This document shows positions 4,001 through 62,893 of a stretch of 64,000 nt of DNA, in pieces. The stretch lies in contig NC_019873.2 in assembly GCF_002234675.1 (NCBI RefSeq), positions 5,171,158 to 5,235,157 of the forward strand, given 5' to 3'. The notes beneath the pieces were generated by a model, which searched no databases, was not told where the DNA came from, and saw only the letters and a program-made list of their open reading frames with translations. This DNA comes from Oryzias latipes. Lineage: Eukaryota; Chordata; Actinopteri; Beloniformes; Adrianichthyidae. The position numbers were made by a program, and so were the translations under genes. Position 1 is the stretch's first letter. Every line of letters begins with the position of its first letter.

Positions 4001-7000
4001 CGCTTAGGGGCGCCGGCCAAAGGGGGCGCCATCCCAAAGTTGTAAAAATTATTTATAGTTCGTATTTTTTAATGTCACAGCTGTTTGTGCACATATATTT
4101 ACATGATATGATCAGTAACAGAAGCCCATCGTGACTGATCAGGCGCCCCCGCCGCAGCCGCTCCTCCCTCACTCGGGTCTTTTACAGACAGCGCGCTCCA
4201 GCACGTGTCCGCGAGAACGCGCTGGAGCGCGCTCTGGCTGAGACGCTCTGTTGATTGTTTTTATTTAAAATTGTGTGATCATCTGATGACAGGATTAAAT
4301 GGAAAGGCAAAAGTAAAAAAGAACCGGGGGGCTCAAAACAAAAAACGCAAAAGGGACAAAGATGTAGAATGAAGAAAAGTTTCTCTAAATGGTTGAGAGA
4401 CAGCAGGTACGTTATAGCCGTGATAAAAACATTTAGGTTAAAGCTACTATAGTAGAATGGCCACAAAAGTGTCTTACAGCTGCACTGAGCAGGATTTACA
4501 GCATCAATAATCAGAAAGAGAGAAAAAAGGAGCTTGTTGGGCGCAGCGGTAGGGCGGTCGACCCATGATCGTAAGATTGCAAGTTCGATTCCCGCCTTGC
4601 ACGCCCATGAGTCGAAGTGTCCTTGGGCAAGACACTGAACCCCACCTTGCCTCTGGTGGTAGGCGGGCGCCTGTGTTTGGCAGCGGAGCGGCCACCAGTG
4701 TGTGAATGTGTGAGTGAATGTGTGTGTGACTGAGTGAATGTGTCTGTGACTGTAAAGCGCTTTGTCCTTATAGGAAGAAAGGCGCTATATAAGTATACGC
4801 CATTTGTTTGTGCTGATTTTGTTTTAAATAATTTCTTTAACTAGATGTACCAAAACACTGAAAAGGTTTTATCCTTTGATTGAAAAAGCACTAAATGATG
4901 ATAAAAGCTGCTCCTTTGGGCAGAAGGGAGAAGTATGTGTGATGGTGGGTTAGATGCTGTTTTTGTTTCTTTTTATATTGTTAAAAGTTTGGATAATTAT
5001 TTTTTGTGAGTGACTATTTAGTTTGCAGCCTTTTGCTTTTAATATCACTTTGGCTGAACAACACTTTGGATTTTAGTTGAACATTTGGAGATTTTAAGGA
5101 AAAATAAAGAAATTCTATTACACCACTAGTGATATCCAACACAAATATAATTTAAAATAAAAAATGTCTCTATTTTACATATAGTTTAGGCACTGTATTC
5201 TTTTTAAGTCTTCCTAACACAAAGTTTATATCACACAGCTGTGAGGAGGGAGAGAAAGACGAGAAGAGAGAAAAAGTATCAGGACAGATGGAGGAAAGAA
5301 ACAGGCTGGTCTGATGGTGGACGTTCAGGGCAAAGTCAGTCCATAACAAGTCCGGCATTTTTGAATAGTATTCTTAATTTAAAATAATGCATTAGCAAGA
5401 TGTTTAATTTACTGTTTTTAAAACATGAAATAATTGTTGCTTGAAGAACAACACAGACAAGAGGAGAAGCAGACAGACATGAGGTTGGTGATGCTGATCT
5501 GATAGAAAAGAGAGCAGAGATGACTTCAGGTAGGAATAATTAAACTATTAAAGTCACAATAACCTAGAGGCGCTTTTTGGTTTAAACTTCTGCTGACCAA
5601 CTGTTCACGTATTTTGGAAAAACAAGTGCAGACATACATGACAAGTCAGTCCCAACAGAGAAGAATGAGGAGAGAGGTTCAGATGATGATGATGATGATA
5701 GAGAGAAAGAGAGACGATCAGCTGATGATGAAGAGGGAGAAGAACAGAGAGGGGGGCTGGGGCAAGGCATCACTCTGAAGATTCCTCTGAATGGCCTTCA
5801 CTTCACAAATTTGGAGAATCAATGAGTCAAAACACGGTTGAAAACGGGTCACAAAAATGTTCTGCTAGGTCGAACAATAAAAGTGTTGTGTGGGTGTTTA
5901 GATAGCTTTAGGAGGGGTGGATGGGCCGTTTTATTATGCGCATTTATACCTGTGTTTGTGTGTGTGTGTGTGTGTGGGGGGGGGGGTAATGTGGCCGCAT
6001 ACCCCTATGAAATGAGGTAGTTGTGCCCCTGAATGAGAAGATCAGTAAAAAGATGCAGAGGTCAGATCTTCCAGGAAAGATGCCTAAAGAGGAGGAGATG
6101 AGGGGAGGTTGGTGTGGGTGAGGAAAGGATTAGATGGAGGTGAAGGGAGAAGCTGAAAGGGAGAATGATGAAGTCGTCGTCTTTTTTTTCTTCCACAGTG
6201 TCTCTGTCGTCCTGCCATCTGCCTGCTTGGTCTCCACAGCGCTAAAACACCTTCATGAACTCACCACCTCTAATTCCATGTTGTAGTGTCCGGCGTAAAT
6301 GGCCACACTTGGTGCAGTCGGGAAGGCTCCGTACAGAAAAGCAAAGTTGGACAAACTCGTGTGGTTGGCGCTCGTCTTGTTCGCTCCGACGTCCAGAATG
6401 TCCACCAGGTCTTTGCAGACCAGCGGCATCACCAGGCTGGGGAACGACATTGAGTGACAAAACAGAAATCCACAAACTCACATATTTTTACAAACTTTAT
6501 TTGAGTTTTCTTTATCTTTTAGAATTTAGGATGGAAAATTCTTCCCCTGATGTGTGTTTTCTGACTGTGAAGTCCAGTTTTTACATTTTCAATGTAATTC
6601 TTAATCTCAATTTATATCAAAGGGTTGTTTAAACATTTTGATTTTGATATATTTTTTTGAACATCTGCCACATTTAGAAAGACTGGTGTTTAAAAAACTA
6701 GAACGGAAAGTTCAATTATTTTTTTATATTTCACAACTTTTAAAATAAATTCACTATTTTTTTATTTGTTATTAATAAAAGAACCAATTCCAACAGGTCT
6801 CAGCGTGGCAAAACAACTGAATCCCTAAAGAGTATGGTTCATTCCAGATCAATGATCATTTTTGAACATACAGTCTGATCGCTGCGACTTATTTTCCTTT
6901 ACAGATCCACTCTAATCCTCTTTTGATCTATTCTGATAGCCTTTCCAGGGGTTTTCAATGTCTTGTTATTAGCCAAAAATGAAAAAAAAACTGTATAGTT

Positions 7001-13121: not shown

Positions 13122-13334
13122 TTAACCCTTGTGCTATCCTAGGCACCTTAACATTGGGAGTTGGGTCATCTAGACCCACTAGACAGTGCTCTGAACCTTT
13201 TTTCTTCAATGATTTGTGATCCTCACTGGTGTCCATGGATAACATGAAATCTTTCCACCTTTATCCACCTTTGTCATGGTAGGGAGAACACGTCAATGTA
13301 AGGGTGGGGTCATCTAAGATAGCATAAGGATTAA
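13122..13334. mobile_element. piggyBac-type MITE, copy A
   Basis: The left end TTAA-CCCTTGTGCTATCC and right end GATAGCATAAGGA-TTAA are inverted repeats bounded by TTAA, the target duplicated by piggyBac transposases. The roughly 205-bp interior is non-coding. A second copy at 45855-46925 shares the whole interior but is split by another element. The right-hand TIR here carries two changes from the copy B version (GATAGCACAAGGG). Confidence 0.8.
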
Positions 13335-14633: not shown

Positions 14634-17600
14634 TCAGGAGTCCTTGCTCTCAAAGTAGGTCTGCTCGATCCGCCTGCAGAAGGACAGCAGGTTGCTGTAG
14701 CTCCTGACCCTCTCCAGCAGCTCTGTGTTGGTCAGCTGGGTGGTCAGTATGGTGAAGAGGTGACCAAACACGAGCGCGTCCAGTTCCGTTGGTCTGCGAC
14801 ACAAAAGAAAATGTTAGAAAAAAAAAAGAAAGCCCCAAAAAGTGACCATTCCTGAAAACGGGTCAGCACTTTTACAATTCCACTTTGAATTGTATTTTGG
14901 GGAGATTTTTTTTTTGTTAAAATAAAAGTTAGGATTTTGTTGTGATATTTAACCACAGGGGTGAGTAAAGAGCAAGCTGCAGATCACATGATCAGTCACC
15001 AAAATACCAGGTAGAATACCTACATTTTAAAGAAGTACGGTTGCGTCCCCAGCCTCTGAGACAGCGCCTGACAGCACTGACTCACATCCTCATAAACCTA
15101 CAACAAACATCCGGAAAACACACAGGGAAACAAGCAAAGTCCTGCTGTGAGACCGTTTAAGACAAGGAAGAGTCATTGTGTAGATAATTGAATAATAATA
15201 GTGATGGAATTGTGTACAAAACACAAGGAAGACACATTTCAATTAAAAATGGAAACATAAAAATAGAAGGAAAAAAAACGCAAATAAATTTGTTCAGGTC
15301 TTAGATTGAGGCCTTAGAGTCTCCCTCTGATCACCTGCCAGCTCAGACAAGGAAAACAAAGACGTCTCTGAATCTATTCGTCTACAGGTTGACGTATCAG
15401 AATAGTGCGGCGCAGGGAGATTTTTTTTTGTCTGTTCCTGAGTCACAATGGTCTGAGTATAGAAATACCGAGACATGCAATTTTAAGCTGAATTTCCTTA
15501 ATATAGCTCCTCCATCATCAGGCAAATGGCACAAGACCGTGTTAAAAACACAATTTTAATGGGAGTGGGTCTTTGAGGAGCAGAGGGGGACCTTATGCAG
15601 AGAGACTGGGGACTGGAGCTAAAGTTTGGGGATAAACATTTGATTATTTGGGGGGAGTTTAGGGGAAAAAAACATTGTGTTAGGAAGGAAAGCAGCCTTT
15701 CAGCTCATTGTTTTGCAGTGGAGAAATGCAGGACAACCGCTGCTCGTTGTGGAGTTGATGCTAACCTGGTCGACCGTTTTCCCTCCCCAGCCGACGGCGT
15801 TCATCTTCCTGCGCACCTCCCACTGCTTCTGATAAGCCAGGATCAAATTGAGAGGCCAGGAGTACGGCGTGCCGTATCTGTGACGAGTGATCTACAAAAA
15901 GTCCAGACGTGCCACCATGAGAGCGGGACCAGGCCAGAGACACAGATGCAGACAGGAGGAACCCACCTGAGAGACCGTGGTTTCATCGCACCACTGGATG
16001 AACAGCTGTGGGGGACAGACAGACAGGCTTCATGAAGATGACATGGACGGGAGCTCTGTTCTGAGTGTGTGTGTGTGTGTGTGTGTGCACCTCAGCAGTG
16101 AGCAGCATGTTGTTGACCAGCTCCATGTACGCTTTCATCTCGGCTCTCTGCACATCGTCCAAGCCGTCGCTCAGCGAGTGACCCTGACGACCACAATCAG
16201 AAGAACATCCAGTCATTTACCTCACCTCCTCTGCTTCTCCACACATTGATAACCTTTCACTAACGGAAAGCATCGGTGTCACATGAAAACTCTTCCCAGG
16301 AGTTTGTAGCATTTTAGAAAGATACTTCCAAATGTTGTGCCTTCAGTTCTGTAGTTTAGTGTCACTTGGAGCACAATCCCATAAAAAATTATTTGTTTTT
16401 TTACACACCAGAACTTGTAAAAAAAAAAACTAGTAATGAAGATAAAATGGTCACAATTACAGGCAAAAAAAAAATCCTTGGTTATAAACTGAATATTGAA
16501 AAGATAATTCTAAGAATACCATTTTAAAATGTTGATTTTTATTCCAAATGACCTTCTTTTTCTTTCTCTTTCGGCTTTTCCCATCAGGGGTCGCCACAGC
16601 GAATCATCCTTTTCCACCTCACTCTATCATGAACATCTTCTACCCTAACATTAGCCAACTTCATGTCCTCTGTTAAGACATCCATGTATCTCCTCTTTGG
16701 CCGTCCTCTTGCCCTCCTGCCAGGCAGCTCCATCTCCAACATCCTTCTACCAATATATCCACTGTCCCTCCTCTGAACATGTCCAAACCATCTCAGTCTG
16801 GCTTCTCTGACTTTGTCGCTAACACAGGCAACATGAGCCGTCCCTCTGATGTACTCGTTCCTTATCCTGTCTAACCTGGTCACTCCTAAAGAGAACCTCA
16901 ACATCTTCATCTCTGCTACCTCCATCTCAGCCTCTTGTCTCTGTCTCACTGCTACCGTCTCTAACCCATAGAGCAGAGCTGGTCTCACCACTGTCTTGTA
17001 CACCTTTCCTTTGAGTCTTGCTGGCACTCTTCTGTCACACAACACTCCTGACACTTTCCTCCAACCGCTCCAACCTGCCTGCACTCGCCTCTTCACCTCT
17101 TTTCCACACTCCCCATCACACTGAACTGTTGACCCCAAGTACTTAAACTCCTGCACCTTCTTCACCTCAGCCCCCTGTAACCTAACGCTTCTACCTTGAT
17201 CCCTCTCGTTCAGACACATGTATTCTGTCTTACTATGACTGACCTTCATGCCTCTTCTTTCCAGAGCAAACCTCCACCTCTCTAGCTGTTCCTCCACCTG
17301 CTCTCTACTCTCACTGCAAATTACAATGTCATCTGCAAACATCATTGTCCAGGGAGATTCCTGTCTTACCTCGTCTGTCAGCCTGTCCATCAGCATAGCA
17401 AACAAAAAAGGACTCAAAGCTGATCCTTGGTGTAGTCCCACCTCCACCTTGAACTCCTCTGTCTGACCTACAGCACATCTCACCACCGTCATACTTCTCT
17501 CATACATGTCCTGAACTACTCTGACATACTTCTCTGCCACTCCAGACAATCTCATACAGTACCACAGCTCCTCCCTCGGCACCCTGTCATACGCCTTCTC

Positions 17601-20600
17601 TAAATCTACGAACACACAATGCAGCTCCTTCTGACCATCTCTGTACTTTTCCATCAACATTCTCAAAGCAAAAATGGCATCAGTGGTGCTCTTACGGGGC
17701 ATGAAACCATACTGCTGCTCACAGATCTCCACCTTCTTCCTAAGCCTGGCTTCCACTACTCTTTCCCACAGCTTCATTGTGTGGCTCATCAACTTTATTC
17801 CTCTATAGTTGCTGCAGTTCTGCGTGTCACCCTTGTTCTTAAAGATCGGAACCAGAACGCTTCTCCTCCATTCCTCAGGCATCTTCTCACTCTCTAAAAT
17901 CCTATTGAACAACCTTGTTAGAAATCCACTGCTGTCTCTCCTAGGCACTTCCATACCTCCACAGGTACGTCATCAGGACCAACGGCCTTTCCGCTCTTCA
18001 TCCTTTTCAGAGCCTTCCTAACCTCATCCTTTCCAATCTCTGCTACTTCCTGCTCCACAACAACCACATCTTCCTCCCTTCTTTCCCTGTCATTTTCCAC
18101 GTTCATCAGCTCCTCAAAATACTCCTTCCATCTTTTTTGTACACTCTCCTGGGTTGTTAGCACCTTTCCACCTCTGTCCTTAATCACCCTTATCTGTTGC
18201 ACGTCCTTCCCATCTCTGTCTCTCTGTCTGGCTAGCCTGAACAAGTCCTTTTCTCCTTCCTTTGTGTCTAACCTGTCATATAGCTCATCGTAAGCTTTCT
18301 GTTTGGCCTTTGCCACCTCTCTCTTCACTCTACGCTGCGCTTCCTTGTACTCCTGTCTACCTTCCTCAGTCCTTTCTACATCCCACTTCTTTTTAGCCAA
18401 CCTCTTCCTCTGGACGCATTCCTGTACTTCCTCATTCCACCACCAAGTCTCTTTACCGTCTTTCCTCTTTCCAGATGACACACCAAGCACCTTCCTACCT
18501 GTTTCCCTGATAATCTCTGCTGTAGTTTCCCAGTCATCTGGAAGCTCATCCTGACCACCCAGGACCTGTCTCAACTTCTGCCTAAATTCCTCACAAGTTT
18601 CTTCATTCTGTAGCTTCCACCACTTGGTCTTCTTTTCTGTTTTCCCTCTCTTCTTCTTCCTGACCTCCAGAGTCATCTTACACACCACCATGCGGTGCTG
18701 TCTGGCTACACTCTCTCCTACCACCACTTTGCAGTCAATAACCTCTCTCAAATGACCTCGTCTGCATAGGATGTAGTCCACCTGAGTACTCCTACCTCCA
18801 CTTCTGTATGTCACTCTATGTTCCTCTCTCTTCTGGAAGTAAGTGTTGACTACAGCCATTTTCCATATTCCAAATGACCAATTTTTGGAAAAAAAAAGAG
18901 ACTAGAAAAACTAAAAAGCACCAAAGTGAATTACCCTAAACATAGTCAATTGTAAGCTTAGTGCTATGATCGCTTAAAAGTATAGGAAAGATTTGAGGAA
19001 ATTGTTAAATGTATCATTAAAAAACCGAGTTGAAATGATGTGTGAGCTGTGAAAACATTTAAAAAAAAGTTGAATAAAAGAAACGGAAAAGCCAAATTCA
19101 ATGATTCATAAACCAAAAGAGTAAAAAAAAGAAATCAAATAGGTTTTTAAAAACACAAAGTGTTGATAAAAAGAAGACACCTGAAGATAAAATATAACAG
19201 AAAAATTCAACACCATAAAAAAATGCAACCCAAATAATGGCAGAATTTTAATTAAATAACAAAATGTATGAATGCGTATTTATTTAATTTAACTTGCAGA
19301 AAGACATTAAGATGTAAAATAAAAATAAAAAACAATTGTTATTGAAGTCATAAAAAATGTAAATAAAAACTGACGTATTTACTTTAGTGAGTGTGTGAAT
19401 ATCTGAATCTTATCTGTGGGTTAATAATAATTATTAGTGTGGGTTAGTAAAGTAATTAACTGACTACTGTTCCTTTAAACAAAATGTCATGACACCGAAA
19501 TAAATGAACAAAACATTAAAAAAAAAAAAACTAGAAGAATCAAGCAGCATTAAGAATGTAAAGAAATAAGAAAAAATGAAATGAAAATGCATGTTAATAA
19601 TTTTCTGCTCCACCTACTGTGGAAACTAAGGAATATGTTGGAGCCAAAGTATAAATCCCCTTCAAAATGAAACACTGACATTAAGCTGCAGTTGACCTCA
19701 CAGCCCAAGTTTGAAAGTTCTGTGTAAAATGTAAAAACCAATTCCTGCTGGGTTCTGTGTGGAGTTAGCATGTTCTGCCCGTGCACGCGTGGGTTTTTCC
19801 TGGGGACTTCGCTTTCCTCCCACTCTCCTAAAAACATGCTTCACAGGTTCACTGATCAGTCTAAATTGCCCCTATGGGTGTGTGTGTGAGTGTGTGAGTG
19901 TGTGTGTATGTGTGTGTGTGTGGTTGTGTTGCCCGCCTTCACACAACCGTAGTTGAACTGGGCTCCGGCAGCACTGTGACCCTGAAAGGGATTCAGTGGC
20001 GCCAGTAAATAGATGGATCCATTCATTCCGTTTCTTCCATCTTCTAAACCCGTTTAATCCCTTTCGGGGTCACAGGGCTGCTGGAGCCTATCCCGGCCAC
20101 TTGTGGGTGAAGGCGGGGGACACCTGGACAGGTCGCCAGTCTGTCGCAGGGTCACATTCACACACCCAGACTCACATTCACACCTGGGGACAATTTAGAG
20201 TAACCTATGAACCTATGAAGCAGGTGGGAGGAAGCCAGAGTCCCCGGAGAAAACCCACGCATGCACGGGGAGAACATGCAAGAGCGCTAACCACTGCACC
20301 TCCATCACATTCTTATTTATTATCTAATAAATTAATTAGTTAATAGCTTAAACAGACTTGATATATCTATGGATTTTATTTAGTTTTGTATCTTTTTCAT
20401 TTGTTTTTATTGCTAAAAGTGTTTGAAACAAACCAAATCATTAAAAAATGAATCAAGAATCAAGTATGAAACAGCAGAAGTTGTGTTGATTGATTCACCT
20501 TAGCTTTGCTAAACTGCACAATCGGCCCAAGTTCTGACACAACCTGGTTCCCCACATGAATAAAAGGTATTTTACCTAAAGGAAGAGCAAACACAGAGTT

Positions 20601-28532: not shown

Positions 28533-29725
28533 TCACGCGGTGATCACGGCCTTCACGTGCTCGCCGCCGCTACTGTTGTTGTTGTTGTCCGATGTTTTCT
28601 TGTTTTTGCTCCTTCCTTTCGTGTTCGGTAGCTTGTTGTCCTTCTTCCAGCGCATGCGCCGATTTTGGAACCACACTTTTACTTGCCGTTCGGACAGACA
28701 GAGCGCGTGAGCCACCTCCACGCGGCGGCGGCGCGTGAGGTAGCGGCTGAAGTGGAATTCCTTCTCCAGCTCCAGAACCTGCTGGCGCGTGTAGGCCGTC
28801 CGCAGGCGCTTAGGCTCCGGACCAACGTGATTTGGATTGACTGTGAAGAAAACCAAAAGAAATTGAATGAACATATTATATATTTAGACTCACATGATCC
28901 AGGCTGTAAAGTTCAGCTGATTTCTGCAGAATTGAAGCGTTATCTTTGCTCCATCTGTGGTTGAGCTGGACAAGATTCAAGAAGCAATTTATTTCTTTAA
29001 AACGTTCAGTCTTTTCTTTGTACACACAACACACACCGTTTTGTGTATGTGTGCGCGCACATGTGTGTGTTGGGGCGCGCGCACACACAGTGGCAGGGTC
29101 ATAAAACTTTATGGAAGCTGTAATTCTCGCGGCTCTCTGCAGTGAGCTCGTAAATAACTCCACAACAAAAAAAGGGGGGATGCTCGCAAATGGAGCAGAG
29201 ACAGAAAGAAGGGAAGAAAGAGGTGCGCCTGGCAGATTTAAGCAAACAAACAAAAGGCAGAATTAAGGAGTGAATTTGAGCTACAGCTCATTTACCGTGG
29301 GCGACGTGCACTTTCTTCATCCACGGGTACACCACAATAGGCGGCTTGTCTTTGCCCTGGCAGGCCGCTTTCCTCTGCACCTGAGCGCTCTTGGCGCAGG
29401 TCATCCAGGCCTGGCACTGCAGATCAGCGGCGGGGAACGTCTCCTTCTCGGGCGCGCCCGCATCCCTGTAGCCGGGGTAGGAGGCACCTGGGAGCCGCGG
29501 CAGCTCCTCTCCATCCTGCCCGCGATGCCCCTGCAGAGAGTAGCCGGTTTGTTGTGGTGTGTACGGAGGTGGAGGGGGCTGCATCGGCTGGTAGCCCCCT
29601 CCGTAATTACCACTGTCCTGCGGGCTGTTGTAATACCCCCCTTGGTCACTAAAATTACTGTAATCTTCTTCACATGGCGGGAACTGCGGCTCTGCGTATT
29701 TACAGCTCACCACGTAGGACTCCAT
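28533..29725 (-). CDS. hoxd4b: Hox4-group homeodomain transcription factor (HoxDb copy)
   Basis: Two exons, 29296-29725 and 28533-28840, with a 455-bp intron (donor CACG|GTAAAT, acceptor TTCACAG), encode 245 residues. The start [20 protein letters not shown] is a typical Hox4 N terminus. A proline-rich stretch follows ([11 protein letters not shown]), then the PBX-binding motif YPWMKK (residues 133-138) and the homeodomain (153-212). The homeodomain has the Hox4 core [17 protein letters not shown] and WFQNRRM, followed by KLPNTKGRS. Relative to the usual Hox4 homeodomain it has several substitutions: leucine at 4, serine at 23, valine at 32, 34, 45 and 47, alanine at 37, arginine at 55 and asparagine at 60. 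W48, Q50 and N51 are kept. Family role: it patterns the hindbrain, anterior trunk and pectoral region by binding TAAT sites with PBX partners. The d4b rather than d4a assignment rests on the two-gene layout with hoxd9b, mir-10d and mtx2. There is no sign of decay. Confidence 0.95.
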
Positions 29726-31144: not shown

Positions 31145-31226
31145 TCGCCCATAGACTCCCCTAGAACCCAATCTGTGACTGAGGCAGCTCCACACACATT
31201 CGGTTCTACAGGGTATGTATGGGCGA
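31145..31226 (-). ncRNA. mir10d: miR-10d-like microRNA precursor hairpin
   Basis: The minus strand folds into a clean hairpin. Stem ends tcgcccata (31218-31226) and tatgggcga (31145-31153) pair perfectly. The 5' arm carries the mature sequence at 31193-31215, beginning TACCCTGTAGAACCGAA and ending TGTGTG. The 3' arm carries a star-like ACAGATTGGGTTCTAGGGGA. The seed ACCCTGT is that of the miR-10 family. As I recall zebrafish miR-10d, the 3' end of the mature sequence (GAATGTGTG rather than GAATTTGTG) is its signature, and miR-10d marks the otherwise lost HoxDb locus in zebrafish. The hairpin is about 1.4 kb upstream of the hoxd4b start codon on the same strand, the conserved miR-10 position. 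Confidence 0.95.
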
Positions 31227-32607
31227 AGGTTCCCGTCACGGCCGGCCGCTGATGACTTCTTTTGTTGGGCGGTGAACTCATTTGTCAGAGATTTTATTGA
31301 CTAGATCAGCTCCTGAAAATCACTGCAAGCTGCAGCCGTTCATTTGGGAGGCCTGTATGTCCCTGTTGTTCAGAAGCAATTACTGCTCCTGTTCCATACA
31401 ATGTTTAACATCAGCTACTCCACATTAATTATGCGTGTAGAAATGCAGATCAGAGAGAGGATCTTTTTTAGAGTCATGATGCATCATGGGAGGTGGTGCA
31501 TGCAGGACGGAGGGATTTTTGCTTTGGCACAGATGACATTTCACCTTTTTCAGGGTCTGACTGCTTCTCTTTGGATTCCTGCTGAGCATATCTATCGTAA
31601 ACAATAGACAGATGAGTGTGGTACATTTATTTAAGATGATGAGAGTGCTGTTTCCTCCCCCTCATTTGATGAGTCAGGGCCAGATTGCAGTTGGTCACGT
31701 GCCAGAGCTGCTAGTAACAACCAGCTAAATTGATGTACACACACAAGCCTTTCCATGCACGAAATTATTGCTGGACTCCAATAAAACAGAGAAAGTTGTA
31801 CAAATTATTCAGCCTGATTGGAACATTTCAAGCTGTGCTGCCTGTTCGCATGCATTTTGGAACTGCAAAATGACACATTTGTCAAGAACTAAACAGAGCA
31901 GGGAAAATAAATATATAATTGAGCATGTCCAAGAGCATTAAGCTTCAGGCTTTTGTTGTCTGAGTTTAAAAGAATGCTTAGTTTGTCCAGAAAGAGTTTT
32001 ATTTTAGAAAATTCTTCAGCTTTCATTCCAATTTTAGCTTTGCAGCATGTGCGGATGTTGCTCAATGTGTGGCAAAAAGTGCTGCAGCATCAGTTGGTGG
32101 TCCTTTCTGGCCTTCTTGTGCCTCAAATTGGACTCCAATTAGGATCCCAATGCCTGAAAGAATCTGGCCCTGAGGGTGAAACTAAACTTCTCATTTAGAT
32201 GCTGCTGTTCATGATGGTTCTCAGCCTTATAAATGTTTACCGTTCAACATCTGCCTCAGCTGGAGCTGCCAGCAGCATTTAAGCTGGACTGTGTGAACTG
32301 AATTTAATGAAACAGACTATTGTGGATGAATAAAACAATAAATCCACGCTTCTTCACAGACATAAATGATGGTGAATGTTACAGACATTGTTGCACTTTT
32401 TGATTAAAATTGCAAGTTTATATTCTTTTGGTTCGTTTTTTCTTTTTTTGCTGTTTATTCGTCCTGCTAAATTCCCATGGCTGCCTGGGTGGATGCCTGC
32501 TGCAGACTGTCAAGACCATTTGCTTCTAGCATGGAGGGCCTGCAAACTTTGTGCCAAAGACACAGGATCCGCTCTGGCTGCAAACGGACTGAACCTTTCC
32601 GCAGATG
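31227..32607. other. intergenic DNA upstream of mir-10d
   Basis: No coding exon was recognised. The part next to mir-10d (about 31227-31330, ggccggccgctgatgac) and 31640-31740 (gatgagtcagggccagattg, tcacgtgccagagctg) look less repetitive and could be conserved non-coding DNA. This needs alignment with other fish. Confidence 0.35.
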
Positions 32608-32688
32608 AGTTGGACGTGAGGGGGGCTTTCATGCGCTTTTGCGCACCTGGTGCGCAAAAGCGCATGAAAGCCCCCCTCACGTCCAACT
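32608..32688. repeat. 81-bp perfect palindrome
   Basis: Two 40-bp arms, 32608-32647 and 32649-32688, are perfect reverse complements around a single T at 32648. The left arm begins agttggacgtgagggggg and ends cttttgcgcacc. Bases outside the arms do not pair. No transposon-like target duplication is seen at its edges. Confidence 0.95.
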
Positions 32689-34199
32689 GTTAAAAATAAA
32701 AGTGAGATGAAAACTGAAATTATTCACAACTATTCCAGCTCAGACTCTCCCAAGAATTGAAATGGGAGGGGGGGGGGGGGGGGGGCAGCAGGCCGTTTGC
32801 ACCTTTTGAACTTTTTTTTTGGAGACCTCGACAACAACGAGCGATGTTTCGCTTCTCCTCAAAGGGCATTCTTCTTGGGCCGGGTAGCCTAGCTGCCGCA
32901 GGTCGCCGCAGGGTCAGTCAGAATCGTTGACCGCTGCTTCACCGTTTCATTAGTCCCCGCGCTGGACAGGACCACGCGGGGGCTCTTGCGGGGGAACCAT
33001 GTGTTCGAGCGCAGTAACTTCTCGGAGAGCTTCTGTTCGCGAGTTTTAGAAAGAATCCCAGTTGGTCTTTTTTTTTTTTTAAACCTGCAGTCTTCATATC
33101 TGCGCGTGCACGATCCAACGCCGTGCGCGCGCAGCACAGCAGGTATAAAAGTGGCCTCTCCTCCCAGGTTCGCCGATATAAAGCCATTCAGTAGTGGCTT
33201 TTCTTTCGGGGGTCGTTTCACTTTTTCATCTTAGACAGGCTGACCGCAGGCTCACCCCTCCACCCCCGGCCCTCTGCCGGGTCAAAGCCGAGCTGGGTGC
33301 TGCTTTAACCCGGTTTAGACATTAACTGCGACCTCCAGCCCTTCTTGGGAACCGCGCGTAAAGGGGAGACACACCTCACTTTACTGAAACATCACCAGAA
33401 AACAAGAGCACTTGTTTTATTAAAAAAAAATCTCACAGAAACGTAAATATTTCAAATTCGATCAGGGAAAACATTAAATGTAGATGGATAACAATTCAAA
33501 TTTCTATGCAAAAATGACGACAACCCAGAATAATCTTTTCATGCTTTGACTTTGCTCGTGCTAAAGGGAACGCACAAACTAAATTACAGATGAATTCAGA
33601 CTGGGGCCATAAATTACGACAGACAGCACTGCTGTTGTCATTAAAACGGACGTAAATGAAACATTTCAGGACCTGCGCAAGTCTGAACGTAGACAAATTA
33701 AAAAAAGAAAAAGTTTTGAAAGAAAAATCTGACTTTAGGTCCTTTATATTGATATCAGGTTTTAGTTTTTATTTTGTTTTAAAGAATTTGATACATAAAA
33801 ATCCATAAGATTTTCACAATCAAATGTTTTCAAATGAAAACAACAGCACTGTTAAAACGGTGACAAATGTTCTCCTAAATTATGTGTTATTTAAAATTAA
33901 ATATCAATGGTAAAAATAATCACGTAAATAATTTAAAACTTTAATACTCATTTTATTCCTAAAGTAAAAAATCTTGTCTTCACCCCCGCATTTTTTAACA
34001 CAATTGTATTGTCATTATAAAAATGTATCTTAAATGTATCTACATTTGCGTAAAACTAATACGTGTTTTTGTCTGATAACATTTACGTAAATCTAAGAGC
34101 AATTCACCCAAAAAATAAGGAAAAATCTGGAGCAGGTAATTTATTTAGCTATTTAAGTTTCCTATTTAGATTTAAAAATTAAATAAATAGCAAAGTACG

Positions 34200-34238
<39 letters not shown>

Positions 34239-35927
34239 CACACACAAGAAGACACGCACTATACGAATCCTTCAAAGAAAATGCGTTATTTATTTTATTT
34301 AATTATTTATTTTTGGCAAAGAAAATTGTAGCCAGTTTTTTTGCTATTTCTTACATAATTAATATTTTACTACTATATCACAGGCATACATTAAATCTAA
34401 GGCCACTCGGATAACAATCCGTATTGCATGGATAAACAATAAAAAAAATGTTTAAAAAAATGCCCGAGCTAAAAAACAAACCCCAAAAAACAAAAACAAA
34501 GATGAAAGCTTGCACGGATTAGAAGACACGTTTTGAGGTAAATCGGTAAAGATTAGCAACTAAATTATTATTGAAACAGAAAATCTTCAGTCACACACAC
34601 GTCAGCGAACATTCTTTCATTAGGTGAAAACATGGCGCGCGCGCTGTGAAGTCTGACACCTGAACGTGGTCTGCGCACAGTATCAGGTGGATTTCTGCCT
34701 CCATGTGAGGTCCTGCGGGGAACACCTCTGCACGCACGCACACGCTGACTCACGCACACCTACCTCACGCACTGTCTTCATCATACACCCCCCACCACCA
34801 CCACCATTTACTGTCAAATCTGCGTCAAATATGAAACCAAAACTCACGCGCGCGTGGGCCCTGGCTGCTGTGATCTCGCGTTAGCCGGGGCTGTTCTCGG
34901 TCTGGGGGCTCCGGCTGCGGCTCCTCCTGAGCGGCTCCTCCGCTCCCGCTCCTCCTGATTCGGGACAAATATCCAGCGCGGATCCCATCTGGCTGCCTGT
35001 CGGCTTTTCTGTCTGAGTTATATTTTGGGGCTTGTCAAACGGCGGCAATAAAATACGCTTTATTACTGTCACGTGTTCTGACCCCCCCCCCCCCCCACTC
35101 CCACAAGGGTTCATAAATTATTAGGCCGTGTTCAGAGAGCCGCTTTGCTTGATGATGGCGCCAAAGGAAAAAAAGGGCCTTTAATCACAGGAGGGCTGAG
35201 CTGGAGGACACTACACCGATCGCCGTTTCTTTGCGCCGTTTGGCATCGTTTAGAGAATATTGCACAGGACGCGCAGAGAATGCGCACTCCGCTCGTGTGT
35301 TTTTGCACTGCGGGGTTTTTCCTGAAAACGGAGCTGAGGCCAAGCGCTGTTTGCATTTTTCCGGATGTGTCTGGAATGCTGTTTGGAGCATTTGTTTCCT
35401 GCTTTGATTTCCGTACATGGGGAGCAATAAAGCCATAAAGCGACCCTGTGAAAACACGCTGCGCGTCTGTGCGTGTCACCGTGTCAAGGCGTGCGTGTTT
35501 AAGCAGCTCACAGGCTACAGAGGGAACGCTTTGAGTCCAAACAAGACTTTAAAGTCCCGCCAGGAGTTTTCACCAACTACTGTTCATTGACCTGAAGCTA
35601 TTTTAAATAATGTGTCATTTAGATCAGTATGGACGATCTGTGTAAGACAATAATTCATGTACTCCAGATGTTTCCTGTCAATTAAAACAATTAAAAGTAA
35701 TTCATTTTAGATAACAAATATGACCAAATATTGTTTGTCTTCACAAATTTCATCTCAGCTTCTGACGCCTTTTGATTTACAGTTTTTTAATTTTTAGATA
35801 GTGAGTTGTTAGAGTTTTAAAAACGCATCCAGGCAAAGGAGGATGGAGGTGGAAGCTTTTGGTCACTTAAAAATAATGAAAGAAAAAAAGAAAGGCCCAG
35901 AGATTCTGATCATTGGTGAGTTTTTAT
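32689..35927. other. hoxd9b-hoxd4b intergenic region, part 1
   Basis: No coding exon is recognised despite several open frames around 32890-33230. A poly-G run lies at 32768-32785, a (CA)n run at 34203-34234 and a poly-C run at about 35084-35097. The GC-richer stretches 32880-33380 and 34600-35480 have many CG dinucleotides and may be regulatory. Confidence 0.4.
34203..34234. repeat. (AC)n microsatellite
   Basis: About 16 AC units in the hoxd9b-hoxd4b intergenic region. Confidence 0.9.
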
Positions 35928-38894: not shown

Positions 38895-38944
<50 letters not shown>

Positions 38945-39000
38945 TAGATAGATAAAAAGATAGATATAGATATATGTGTGTATATATATATATATGTGTG

Positions 39001-39094
<94 letters not shown>

Positions 39095-45854: not shown

Positions 45855-46925
45855 GTAACCCTTGTGCTATCCTAGGCACTTTAACATTGGGAGTTGGGTC
45901 ATCTAGATCAGTGTTTTTCAACCTTTTCTGAGCCACGGCACACTTTAACCTTGACAAAAATCCCGCGGCACACCAGCATCCAAAAAGAAAGCAGAAACTC
46001 ATAGTCTGTATTGATCTACAGCCCCCCCCCCCCGGCCGCAATCTCATGTGAATCTTTGTGATAATTGTGTCAGAAAAAGCTGGAAGTTGCAGCTGTTTTT
46101 TTTCTAAAAGATGTAATAAGAGTTAAGTTCGAAAATTTACAAACTGTGTTCCTTGCTATTTCAAGACGTTTAACAAGGATGGCTCATTGAACGCTTAAGT
46201 GCTGTCACTTTAACCCATTGCATCATGGGAGATGTAGTGCATAAAACGGCCGGAGATCGCTTTTCAGAGCTGCATTGTTTTGTTCACTTGTTCCAAGGTC
46301 TGATCCCAGATTCTGTGGAAAGCTACACCGCTAAAGACGAGCTTTAGCTGGTATTTTTGTTAGAACTGAGTGAATGTTTGAGCTAAATCAGAACAAGGAA
46401 GTGAAGACTTTAACCACTTCTGATTGGTCAGACTGATGACGTGTGATTGAGCCTTCAAGAATGATTGGTGGAGACAGTTAAAGGGGCGGGACTTTTCCTA
46501 AAACAGCTGAAGCTACGGCTAAATCGTGGTACCGTCATTCTTATCAAAATGTCTTTAATAGAATCAAATAAACACAAAGAAAAAAGTATTTTATGATCTT
46601 TCATATTCCTAACTACTCAGTGTTTTATCATGGCCTGTTTGGATGAACACAGAGCTGAAATCCTAGAGATGAAAAATGTTTTTAGATCAGTTAATGAGGG
46701 CAATTTCCCACGGCACACCTGACCATCTCCCACGGCACACCAGTGTTGACAAACACTGATCTAGACCCACTAGACAGTGCTCTGAACCTTTTTTCTTCAA
46801 TGATTTGTGATCTTCACTGGTGTCCATGGATTACATGAAATCTTTCCACCTTTATCCACCTTTGTCATGGTAGGGAGAACACGTCAAAGTAAGGGTGGGT
46901 TCATCTAAGATAGCACAAGGGTTAA
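45855..46925. mobile_element. piggyBac-type MITE, copy B, split by a nested hAT-like element
   Basis: The ends GTAA-CCCTTGTGCTATCC (45855 on) and GATAGCACAAGGG-TTAA (to 46925) match copy A at 13122-13334. The left TTAA has mutated to GTAA. The interior is collinear with copy A except for an 850-bp insertion at 45909-46758. Confidence 0.85.
45909..46758. mobile_element. hAT-type non-autonomous DNA transposon nested in the MITE
   Basis: The ends CAGTGTTTTTCAACC and GTTGACAAACACTG are inverted repeats of hAT type. The element is flanked by an 8-bp duplication, atctagat (45901-45908) and atctagac (46759-46766), with one later base change; copy A of the MITE shows the undivided site catctagaccc. 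The interior is non-coding, with the motif cacggcacac at both ends. Confidence 0.88.
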
Positions 46926-47196: not shown

Positions 47197-47877
47197 AGGC
47201 CCGTTCACACCGGGACGAATTTCGCCGGCGATTTTCGCCGACGTTTAACGCCTCGTGACTAAACAAAGGGCCCCAATGAGAGTGTGCACACCGACGCGAA
47301 AAAATGCCACGCGTCAAAGCGTCAAAAAAAAACAAAACGCCTCGGGTTCGTTTTTTTTTTTGACGCCTCGCGTCGAAATCTATTCGACCAATGAGAACGG
47401 CGCTTTTGCACACGTGTCTGGAGCTTCTGAAGTTACAGTAAAACACAACTTGGGGGCGCTCAAACACAGAACTGCCTTGCACACATACCAGCGAAGAAGA
47501 TAGACGCCAAGTAGCGTCTACACTGCCGCGAAGAAATAATGACGGACATTCTAAAATATCCCCGAACCAAGCACCAGTTGGAGCTACTGGTGCTTGAAAT
47601 ATTCATGTTTTCTCTGTTTGATTCTGACAAGCGTGTAAATACTTGCTCTCTTCTTCTGAGTGAAAAGCGACTTCAAGAAGCGTAAAGTTGCGCAGCGCCA
47701 CCTTGTGTACAGGAGTATTTCTGTTTACATTAAGCACCATCTAATGTCAGGGAAGGAAATTGCATGTTCGCTCGGCTCATCGTCAGCGAAAATCGTCTGG
47801 GTGTGAACACAAAAAACGTGGCGAAAAACGCTGGCGAATAACGCCTGGCGAATATTCGTCCCGGTGTGTACGGGCCT
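47197..47877. mobile_element. PIF/Harbinger-like MITE
   Basis: The ends AGGCCCGTTCACACCGGGAC and GTCCCGGTGTGTACGGGCCT are long inverted repeats flanked by TAA on both sides (47194-47196 and 47878-47880), the 3-bp target type of PIF/Harbinger elements. The interior is CpG-rich with no transposase frame. It lies between hoxd4b and hoxd9b. Confidence 0.85.
47693..47707 (-). promoter_or_regulatory. CTCF-like motif inside the Harbinger-like MITE
   Basis: CAGCGCCACCTTGTG is the reverse of CACAAGGTGGCGCTG, a plausible CTCF core carried by the mobile element. Confidence 0.4.
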
Positions 47878-52000: not shown

Positions 52001-54891
52001 AAGCAATACATATTAAACAGGTTTTAGTCCTTAATTCTTGTTTTTTTCCAATTTAAATTGCTTTTCTCACATAAAGCAGACTATTTGTTGCATAACAAAT
52101 AGTCCGTGTCGTGCAGCACTACCGCTGCAGTCAAGATTCTGCGATATATATATGCTGATCTTTCCGATGGGTTGAATAAAGCATCAGTTCAGAGAGAAAG
52201 TTACCGTTTGTTTTTGTCCAGATGATGAAGCAAAAGGTTGTTTAAAAGAAGCCAGCGCAGTGATACCAAACATTTAAGCTAGCTGACCGGAACTTCTTTT
52301 TTCACTGTGCGGTTATCAGGTTTTAATGCACACCCAGCAGCCAATCAGAATCGAGTATTCAAACGGACCATGGTATAAAACTAAAAGAACCACTGGGAAC
52401 ACTTTGGGAATAAATCTAAAGATAAGCAGAGTGACTTTAAAAGAAGCTTTTTCTGGTTGAGGTTACGTTTCTAGAGTATCAGTTTGACTCTGGACATAAT
52501 GGGACGCAAAGCCTCCAGAAAGTTCCTTTTTTGTGCCATTAGTCCATAAAATATTCATCCAAACGCTTTCTGGGTAAAATGTTTCTTCGTGTTCTTGTTG
52601 CCCAGCGGCGTCTTTCTCCTTGAACTCTCCCATGGATCCATTTTGTCTCCTTCTTCTTGTTGGAGCATGAACTCTGACCTGAACTGAGTGAAAAGAGGCC
52701 TGCAGTTCTTCACGTGTTGCTGTGCTTCTTTTATGACCTGCTGGATGAGTCGTTCTCGTTGTGTTCATAGAGTCAGGTTGGTTGGTCGGTCACTTGGGAA
52801 GGTTTTTCCCTTTTCCAAGACTTCCACATTTGGCTCTCACTGTGGTTCTGGAGACCCAAAGCTGCAGAAATCTCTTATAGGGGCCTTCAGACGGAAACCT
52901 GTGAGTCATGTCTTTGTTTCTCGTTTGTTCTTTGAAAGCAGCAGAGTGAGACATTAAGAGAGGATATAAACTGCCTATTATCAATTGCTTAATAGTATCA
53001 CGCATCATAGCATTAAAGAAGAACAAAAGTAAACGCTGAGGAATTTTCAAAATAAAAGCATGCAGACTGAACTTGCAAAAAGCCAGTCTATTTGTCAAGA
53101 ATAAAGTATGCTGCTACTTCTAACAACATTCAAAAGAGACGAGTGAATGTGAGAGAACAAGCTAGACGTCTTTTGTTGATGGAATCTGAATTTAAACCAT
53201 CCCAAACTGAGTTAACGTCTCCTGAATACCGTCCGTCATCAAAGACAAAGTCTGAGCATTTCCGTCTGTGTGGTGAAGAATAATGTGGAGGAAATGATGA
53301 AAAATGTTACACAATTAAAAAAAAAAATACTAACTGAAATTACAAAATGAGAAACCCAATGGGACAATGTCTGGACAACCATGGCGTTGCTTTGACACCT
53401 TGATGCTTTAATCTTTAATTACTTTGTTTAATGTGTAAAAATGCATGAATAAACTATAATACGCTTTGGGTGGGAATTAATAGGATTTGTCTTCTATTCA
53501 CTCCTTTTCAAGCACTTTTCTGTTTATCATATTTACTGGAGTGTTTTATTTTGTGTTTGAAAACCAGTCCATCACTTAGAACAATGTAAAAAAGCTGCTA
53601 ATTTTCCCCCTTTTATATGTCTGAAATTAATAACATACTATGAAAAGCCCCTCGATCTTATTATTATTGAAAATAGGCATTTTTACAGTCTAGTTTTCGT
53701 GCAAAAACTTGTTTATATTCTGACTTTATTAATTGAAAAAGAACATTAACGCCAGAAAACGGGAAAAACGATGAAAGACAAATTATATATTAGTTGGATG
53801 GTTTCATTATTTTCATTTAAATGGTTTTTTCCCTTTTCTTTAAGGGGTTTATGAGGAAATGTGTGCTGTTCTAATAATACTAATAAATCTTTGCGTGGCA
53901 CAGAAGCTTAAATTATAAAAAGTCTTAATTGCTAAAAAAAAATAGTATTTTCTCTTATTTTAAACGTGTTTTAAGTCTTCCCTCTCTGATTAGGCTGAAC
54001 TAAGGAAAACTGCGCCCGTCTGCTGCTCCTCTTTACTGACAAATTACTAAATAACAATAGCGCCTTAATTATTTTAATGGACAATAAAGTTTTATATTTT
54101 ACCGTTTACAAGACATTTATAGGGCAATAAAAGTCGCACACACTCTCCAGCACCGCCCGGCCTCCGTAGGCGGGTGAGCAGTCTTTACCCGGGTCTGGCG
54201 GCGGCGCCTGCTGCTGCTGCTGCTGCTGCTGCTGGCTCTCCCTGTCCTCGTCCTCCTTCTTGGGCTCGGCCGTCCTCCCCAGCTCCTCCGCGGTGCCCAG
54301 CCGCTCCAGGACCACCTCGGTCCGGCTTGTGAAGCTCGGACCGTCGCTAGCGCCGAGCGACGGCGGCGGCGAACTTGTTTCGGGTTTTATTGCGTCGTAC
54401 GTCGGGCTCGGCTCCGGCACGCACGCGGGGAAGGAGGCTGGACCCGGCGGCGGCGGCAGCGCCGTCGTCTCCGAGGCGGGGGTCGTCACCCCCTCCCAGC
54501 CGCGGACGAACCTGCCGTCGGAGGCGGAGAGGTGGTGATGCTCGGCGTGGCCCGGAGCCTGCGGACCGTAGTAGGCGTGGTGATGGCCGAGGAGGTGATG
54601 TGGATGGAAGAGGCCCGGGAGGGAGCCCCCGTGGGCGGACTGCAGCTGCGGGGAGGACGGCGAGGAGGACGCGGAGGTGCCCGTCCACGGAGAGAAGCCG
54701 TTCAGGCTGACTTTGTTGGAAAAATGGGAAAAATCCGGGATGTGGGAGCTCCCCTCCTCTTCCTCCTCCGCTCCCCGGGCTGGCTTTGAGCAGGCGCCCG
54801 TCGAACTCTGCAAGCCTCCCGGGATGAAGTGCGCGCCGTACGGCTCCTCGGCCCCGAGACCCATCATGGAATAATAATTCGTTAGCGACAT
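49024..54891 (-). CDS. hoxd9b: Hox9-group homeodomain transcription factor (HoxDb copy)
   Basis: Two exons, 54189-54891 and 49024-49268, encode 315 residues. The donor is CCGG|GTAAAG, the acceptor TTCACAG, and the phase-1 join gives [14 protein letters not shown], matching the Hox9 form DPNNPxANWxHARS with its PBX-contact tryptophan (residue 241). The homeodomain (247-306) has the Hox9 signature [29 protein letters not shown] and [11 protein letters not shown]. Exon 1 has a Hox9-like N terminus with NYY, PDFS-like [18 protein letters not shown] and DGRFVRGW, then a run of nine glutamines (220-228) coded by CAG. Unusual points are leucine at homeodomain position 32, glycine at 36 (usually arginine), an atypical C-terminal tail ([11 protein letters not shown]), and a 4.9 kb intron, long for a Hox9 gene and filled with repeats. 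W48, Q50, N51 and R53 are intact, so it looks functional. Family role: posterior trunk and fin patterning with PBX and MEIS partners. Confidence 0.93.
50274..50640. repeat. GC-rich stretch with long frames on both strands
   Basis: Proline-, arginine- and glycine-rich frames of 114-142 codons run on both strands, but this is what GC-rich, stop-poor DNA produces. There is no recognisable domain. It directly abuts an R1 copy, so it is probably part of a mobile element. Confidence 0.45.
50802..51486. mobile_element. hAT-like element nested in R1
   Basis: The ends TAGAGGGCTGCATTGGGA and CCCGCACAGGGCTCTA are imperfect inverted repeats. The flanks aaccacag (50794-50801) and agccacag (51487-51494) form an 8-bp duplication with one difference. 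The interior has no transposase but carries many gcgggcggga-type repeats near both ends. Confidence 0.72.
51857..52373. mobile_element. foldback-type element nested in R1
   Basis: It interrupts R1 between cataattat and aaaactaaaagaaccactgg. It contains a strong internal inverted repeat, arms about 51860-51903 and 51934-51977 (gggttaatggc...tgcgttattac and complement). A second, wider pair is formed by ataccatggtc near 51981 and gaccatggtat near 52367. No coding capacity. Confidence 0.65.
54208..54234 (-). repeat. CAG repeat coding a nine-glutamine run in hoxd9b
   Basis: Nine uninterrupted CAG codons (CTG on the plus strand) near the end of hoxd9b exon 1, 19 bp from the splice donor. A pure codon run may vary in length among individuals. 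Confidence 0.95.
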
Positions 54892-55024
54892 GCTTATTTT
54901 ATTATTTCAATAAAAAGGAAGTTAGGAAGGACTGTAAAACGTTAGATGGGCTGGTATAGTGGCTCCATCCTCCCCTAAAATGGTAGTAATTTTTTTCCTG
55001 CCTTCACCTCCTTCCCGGCTGCCG

Positions 55025-60560: not shown

Positions 60561-62893
<2,333 letters not shown>

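Follow-up and report, generated by a model that had tools for sequence, protein, structure and literature searches.

An exact 81-bp palindrome between hoxd4b and hoxd9b of Oryzias latipes and its probable origin by replication template switching

The palindrome and its Hox setting

How a perfect inverted repeat came to lie between two Hox genes, and whether it has a role there, is the question raised by positions 32608-32688 of a 64,000-nucleotide stretch of Oryzias latipes DNA (contig NC_019873.2, 5,171,158 to 5,235,157), which is referred to here as the window. Direct sequence comparison showed that 32608-32688 is an exact 81-bp palindrome with 40-bp arms, zero mismatches and a 1-bp spacer, and this exact comparison of the arms confirmed the coordinates and the perfection given in the initial annotation. 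The left arm (32608-32647, plus strand) is the exact reverse complement of the right arm (32649-32688, minus strand), and tentatively the left is the ancestral copy and the right the inverted copy. Between them is a single T at 32648, to which no strand is assigned and on which the loop of the folded RNA (39 pairs, 3 nt) is centred. Because the bases directly outside the palindrome are G and G, the symmetry ends exactly at 32608 and 32688 and is lost at the first flanking base on both sides. The G+C content of the palindrome is 59%, with six CpG dinucleotides, and that of the whole window is 0.41.

In random sequence of the same composition the chance expectation for 40-bp arms is 1.8e-19 with a 1-bp spacer and 3.8e-18 with spacers of 0-20. 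When the window was scanned with spacers of 0-20, the next-longest perfect palindromes were in an AT-rich tract at 38897-39020 and had arms of at most 23 bp, and the best ones elsewhere had 14-bp arms with a 20-bp spacer (47319-47366) and 13-bp arms with an 18-bp spacer (4190-4233). With tolerant settings (arms of 25 bp, up to 4 mismatches, spacer up to 10, G+C above 15%) a scan gave five rows, all of them nested at 32608-32688, and no other locus in the window. In a separate inverted-repeat scan the palindrome was absent from the longest 25 of the 158 pairs. None of the titles and abstract openings among the literature matches listed names a palindrome at this locus, and the string "palindrom" is absent from the main text of PMC2080641.

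The palindrome is between hoxd4b and hoxd9b. These names, and that of mir-10d, were taken from the initial annotation and from the teleost HoxDb gene content reported in PMC9525239 and PMC2080641. All the features that define this setting are on the minus strand. A homeodomain match within 28533-28883 was taken as hoxd4b, and its putative start at 29725 comes from a first-exon open frame. The mir-10 precursor at 31148-31222 (mir-10d by its position) matches Rfam RF00104 at 55.1 bits, the gathering score being 47.5; it is not part of the palindrome and is 1,385 bp from it. On the other side, a domain match to the Hox9 activation region at 54106-54906 and, from its sequence, a homeobox at about 49.1 kb were taken as hoxd9b. 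Thus, the earlier placement of the palindrome between hoxd4b and hoxd9b and 1.4 kb upstream of mir-10d holds by the Rfam match, the homeodomain, the Hox9 region and the measured distance. The Hox9 activation-region frame and the homeobox are just under 5 kb apart on the minus strand, and between them, at about 50.2-50.7 kb, is a stretch that is open in several frames. Two CpG-rich stretches, 32751-33750 and 34501-35500, are upstream of hoxd4b, at a distance of about 3.0-5.8 kb from its putative start, and, by analogy, may be regarded as candidate counterparts of the mouse Hoxd4 P2 promoter. Regulatory changes in HoxDb have been reported to alter stickleback spines (PMC9525239). Since the enhancer studied in that report is between HOXD9B and HOXD11B, no phenotype is implied for the palindrome.

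Other repeats were also seen in the window. Two nearly identical 52-bp stretches, 13123-13174 and 45856-45907 (local score 99/104), are both in open frames reading DDPTPNVKVPRIAQGL and are probably a dispersed repeat. At 19768-20279 there is an imperfect nested inverted repeat of about 510 bp with arms that are 73-84% complementary, which resembles an ancient foldback element or a pair of repeat copies in opposite orientation. Long open frames on the minus strand at 16584-18901, of which 16584-17969 matches reverse transcriptase (Pfam RVT_1, E 2.3e-38), represent a LINE-like insertion downstream of hoxd4b.

Origin of the palindrome

The most likely explanation, which we consider probable, is that replication template switching with two switch points duplicated a local sequence in inverted orientation. 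It is the best-supported reading, it invokes a known class of mutation, and it rests on the anatomy of the palindrome and on published precedent. The right arm is an exact reverse-complement copy of the sequence adjacent to it, and the flank is abruptly unrelated, with the symmetry stopping at 32608 and 32688. The exactness of the arms, the 1-bp centre and the loss of similarity directly outside the arms fit a double switch in which the polymerase goes and returns. The single locus in the window and the lack of a target duplication also speak for this reading. In such an event, the polymerase copying this stretch would have left its template at a short self-complementary seed, for example the present centre GCGCACCTGGTGCGC, and would have moved onto its own nascent strand or the sister strand. 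About 40 bases would then have been copied backwards before the return to the original template, of which the right flank is presumably the continuation. The product would be a head-to-head pair of identical arms with unrelated sequence behind it, the left arm being tentatively the original, and it may well have been neutral.

Precedent for such events comes from the great apes, where 4,017 significant template-switch events have been reported; in a gold-standard set of 1,503 of them the copied length has a median of 12 and a maximum of 128, and 65.0% of them lengthen the sequence (PMC7954356). Further precedents are MIR633, reported to be an event of this type (PMC8794818), and the human Xq27.1 palindrome (PMC6489244). 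The palindrome shares with the short-range switches of the four-point model (PMC7954356, PMC8794818) a perfect inverted repeat, a tiny spacer and unrelated flanks, and its 40 nt falls among the copied lengths reported for them. It differs in that those events were shown against an ancestral sequence, whereas the palindrome is known from the present sequence alone, and in that 40 nt is well above the median of 12, which counts against template switching. The composition does not fit either, because the reported great-ape switch regions are richer in AT than random genomic sequence (PMC7954356) whereas the palindrome is in G+C-rich surroundings (0.53 in 32500-32699 against 0.41 in the window).

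The same switching chemistry could have acted on an older structure, that is, an imperfect palindrome such as a regulatory dyad or an old hairpin could have been perfected recently by quasipalindrome correction. The change from a near-perfect to a perfect inverted repeat has been described as the usual form of local template switching in vivo (PMC7954356; PMC3820800, PMC8604942), and without an outgroup such a correction is hard to tell apart from a new inverted duplication. Outside the 40-bp arms, however, there is no trace of an older, wider symmetry, the symmetry stopping at the first outside base. The repeat search of 32000-33400 listed five pairs and no wider inverted repeat centred on the palindrome; of the other inverted pairs, the closest (13 nt, 32579-32591 and 32789-32801) has a different centre. 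We consider quasipalindrome correction very unlikely.

If the arms were brought in from elsewhere, the candidate would be a palindromic MITE or a foldback transposon, which the inverted-repeat structure and the presence of other repeats in the window would suit. A second copy of the palindrome was not found in the 64-kb window, and the longest direct repeat across the palindrome ends was 3 nt when end shifts of up to 8 and repeats of up to 12 nt were tried, so that the target site duplication expected of a transposon was not seen. The earlier argument that the lack of a target duplication speaks against a simple MITE thus stands with shifted ends as well, and an insertion of this kind is barely probable at all. 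A source for the arm elsewhere in the window was also sought and rejected: the best partial match was 13 bases at 62153-62165 with a score of 26, a score that was reached by 23 of 200 letter-shuffled arms.

It also had to be considered whether the palindrome is in the genome at all, because a foldback, or a gap-closing error that joined the sequence to its own reverse complement, would be expected to produce just such perfect symmetry. Long G runs are places where assembly or gap filling can fail, and an 18-G run at 32768-32785, 80 bp to the right of the palindrome, marks a nearby difficulty for assembly; a CTCF-like reading of this run was considered as well. A simple foldback, however, would run on through the reverse complement of the whole left flank, and after 40 bp there is unrelated sequence instead. 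Since the unrelated sequence resumes there, an artefact needs a second error at that exact point. The window has no N bases, and there was no sign of contamination in the plasmid, E. coli or bacterial and archaeal collections. By blastn at E 0.01 the 181 bp of 32560-32740 had no match in the plasmid collection or in E. coli genomes, and exact matches were found neither for a 31-base arm pattern among the bacterial and archaeal genomes nor for a 22-base arm pattern in viral contigs; these searches may omit records close to the genome of the window itself. The hoxd4b homeodomain exon gave 13 pattern matches in viral contigs and none was confirmed as a relative. An assembly, cloning or library artefact is accordingly unlikely.

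If the palindrome arose by a template switch, the base composition gives a weak hint as to which arm is older. The arm has a G+C content of 0.60, and that of the left and right flanks is 0.57 and 0.23 over 40 bp, 0.55 and 0.34 over 80 bp, and 0.54 and 0.47 over 120 bp. The match to the left flank over 40 bp hints that the left arm is the original and the right arm the copy, but the contrast between the flanks fades with width (0.54 vs 0.47 at 120 bp). The observed/expected CpG ratio points the other way, being 0.31 over 500 bp on the left, 0.94 over 500 bp on the right and 0.89 in the arm, where it is based on three CpG only.

The hairpin and its possible transcription

Within the hoxd4b/mir-10d primary transcript the palindrome could act as a functional hairpin, either by giving rise to a new microRNA or hairpin siRNA or by influencing how the transcript is processed. 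Folded alone, the RNA of the palindrome has 39 pairs, a 3-nt loop and an energy of -81.6 kcal/mol, and with flanks the energy is -94.4 kcal/mol (z -12.5), with none of 200 shuffles as low. This stability follows from the symmetry; it does not indicate a function. With respect to hoxd4b the palindrome is upstream, 2.9 kb from the putative start, and it is upstream of mir-10 as well. Because of this position, a layout conserved with mouse Hoxd4/miR-10b would transcribe the palindrome, and transcription is possible by this analogy. Should the hoxd4b/mir-10d host transcript span the palindrome, as the layout of mouse Hoxd4 would have it, the nascent RNA would form a hairpin of 39 pairs as a by-product.

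At the gathering threshold no Rfam family was found at the palindrome. A lax Rfam search of 32500-32800, with rows kept up to E = 1, gave 14 rows of which nine were microRNA families; three families were found on both strands and the remaining rows were on one. The best was mir-3202 with 51.2 bits and E 1.4e-10. All 14 rows are, however, below their gathering scores, that of mir-3202 being 90, so that the palindrome does not match a curated microRNA precursor family by this measure. The mir-3202 scores on the two strands are 51.2 and 51.1 bits, and we read these lax scores as what any perfect stem would obtain. The loop, moreover, is only 3 nt, and Drosha substrates favour larger loops. Little probability is therefore left for a functional hairpin, and a function of the palindrome is unsupported. 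Template switches can make perfect stems, MIR633 being reported among them, and microRNA loci have been reported to pass through a perfect-stem phase (PMC8794818). A bolder form of this reading is that a template switch within the hoxd4b/mir-10d host transcript made the 39-pair stem at once, and that the stem is now transcribed and diced in the mir-10 axial domain. It would then be a small-RNA gene of de novo origin in a Hox cluster, still at its perfect-stem stage; this we regard as extremely unlikely.

Two other signals around the palindrome were set aside. An exon-like stretch of 40 nt on the minus strand, nearly the same as the arm, is delimited by two splice-like signals (32646-32688). 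The acceptor, where the right arm ends on its outer side, is weak (6.7 bits, among the best 5% of AG in the window), and the donor, in the centre of the palindrome, is good (9.3 bits, among the best 0.6% of GT). With the scores of this pair as thresholds, an acceptor was found 30-60 nt upstream of 3 of the 21 strong donors on the minus strand, the palindrome donor included, and of 1 of the 13 on the plus strand. The splice weight matrices used are approximations. Because comparable pairs occur elsewhere in the window, the splice-like pair was treated as chance. A bacterial promoter and terminator scan of 32500-33500, which is not applicable to fish, gave no promoter-like site and two terminator-like sites outside the palindrome.

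Age, stability and comparison with known palindromes

The absence of differences between the arms (80 sites) gives 95% upper ages of 3.75, 7.5, 15 and 37.5 My at 1e-8, 5e-9, 2.5e-9 and 1e-9 per site per year, respectively, under neutrality and these assumed rates and with gene conversion between the arms ignored. Identical arms fit neutral ages of several My, and therefore great youth is not forced and constraint is not evidenced. It had been proposed that the palindrome is either very young, constrained or an artefact. Of these, extreme youth and constraint are not needed, since neutrality up to 3.75-37.5 My suffices, and the artefact stays live but weaker. The accompanying statement that perfect palindromes are unstable is right in part. 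The risk of instability is reported to rise with arm length, with arm identity and with a short or absent spacer, and the 1-bp spacer found here fits a raised risk because short or absent spacers increase it (PMC7999016). On the other hand, the palindromic AT-rich repeats (PATRRs) that are named as breakage sites have lengths of several hundred bp, and about 180,000 human palindromes of more than 40 bp have been reported with up to 4 mismatches allowed (PMC7999016). Like the PATRRs, the palindrome can form a hairpin or a cruciform, but they are also more than 90% AT (PMC7999016), whereas it is 81 bp with 59% G+C.

The human Xq27.1 palindrome of 180 bp (PMC6489244) is similar as a young palindrome whose halves, in the human lineage, are exactly inverted. 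It differs in being longer, in having LINE1 and LTR flanks, in being a known rearrangement hotspot and in that its single-half form is documented in other primates; as reported, primates other than human and chimpanzee have one half (stated as single for most of them) and in chimpanzees both halves point the same way (PMC6489244). With MIR633 and the other microRNA stems made by template switching (PMC8794818) the palindrome shares a perfect stem formed at once as a reverse-complement repeat. It differs from them in having no mismatches and a 3-nt loop and in being documented by its sequence only.

If it is real in the genome, the palindrome is a clean and long case of a perfect stem made in one step, in Hox intergenic DNA that is possibly transcribed. 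As such it would help to date template switching in fish and to find out if stems of this kind turn into microRNA genes.
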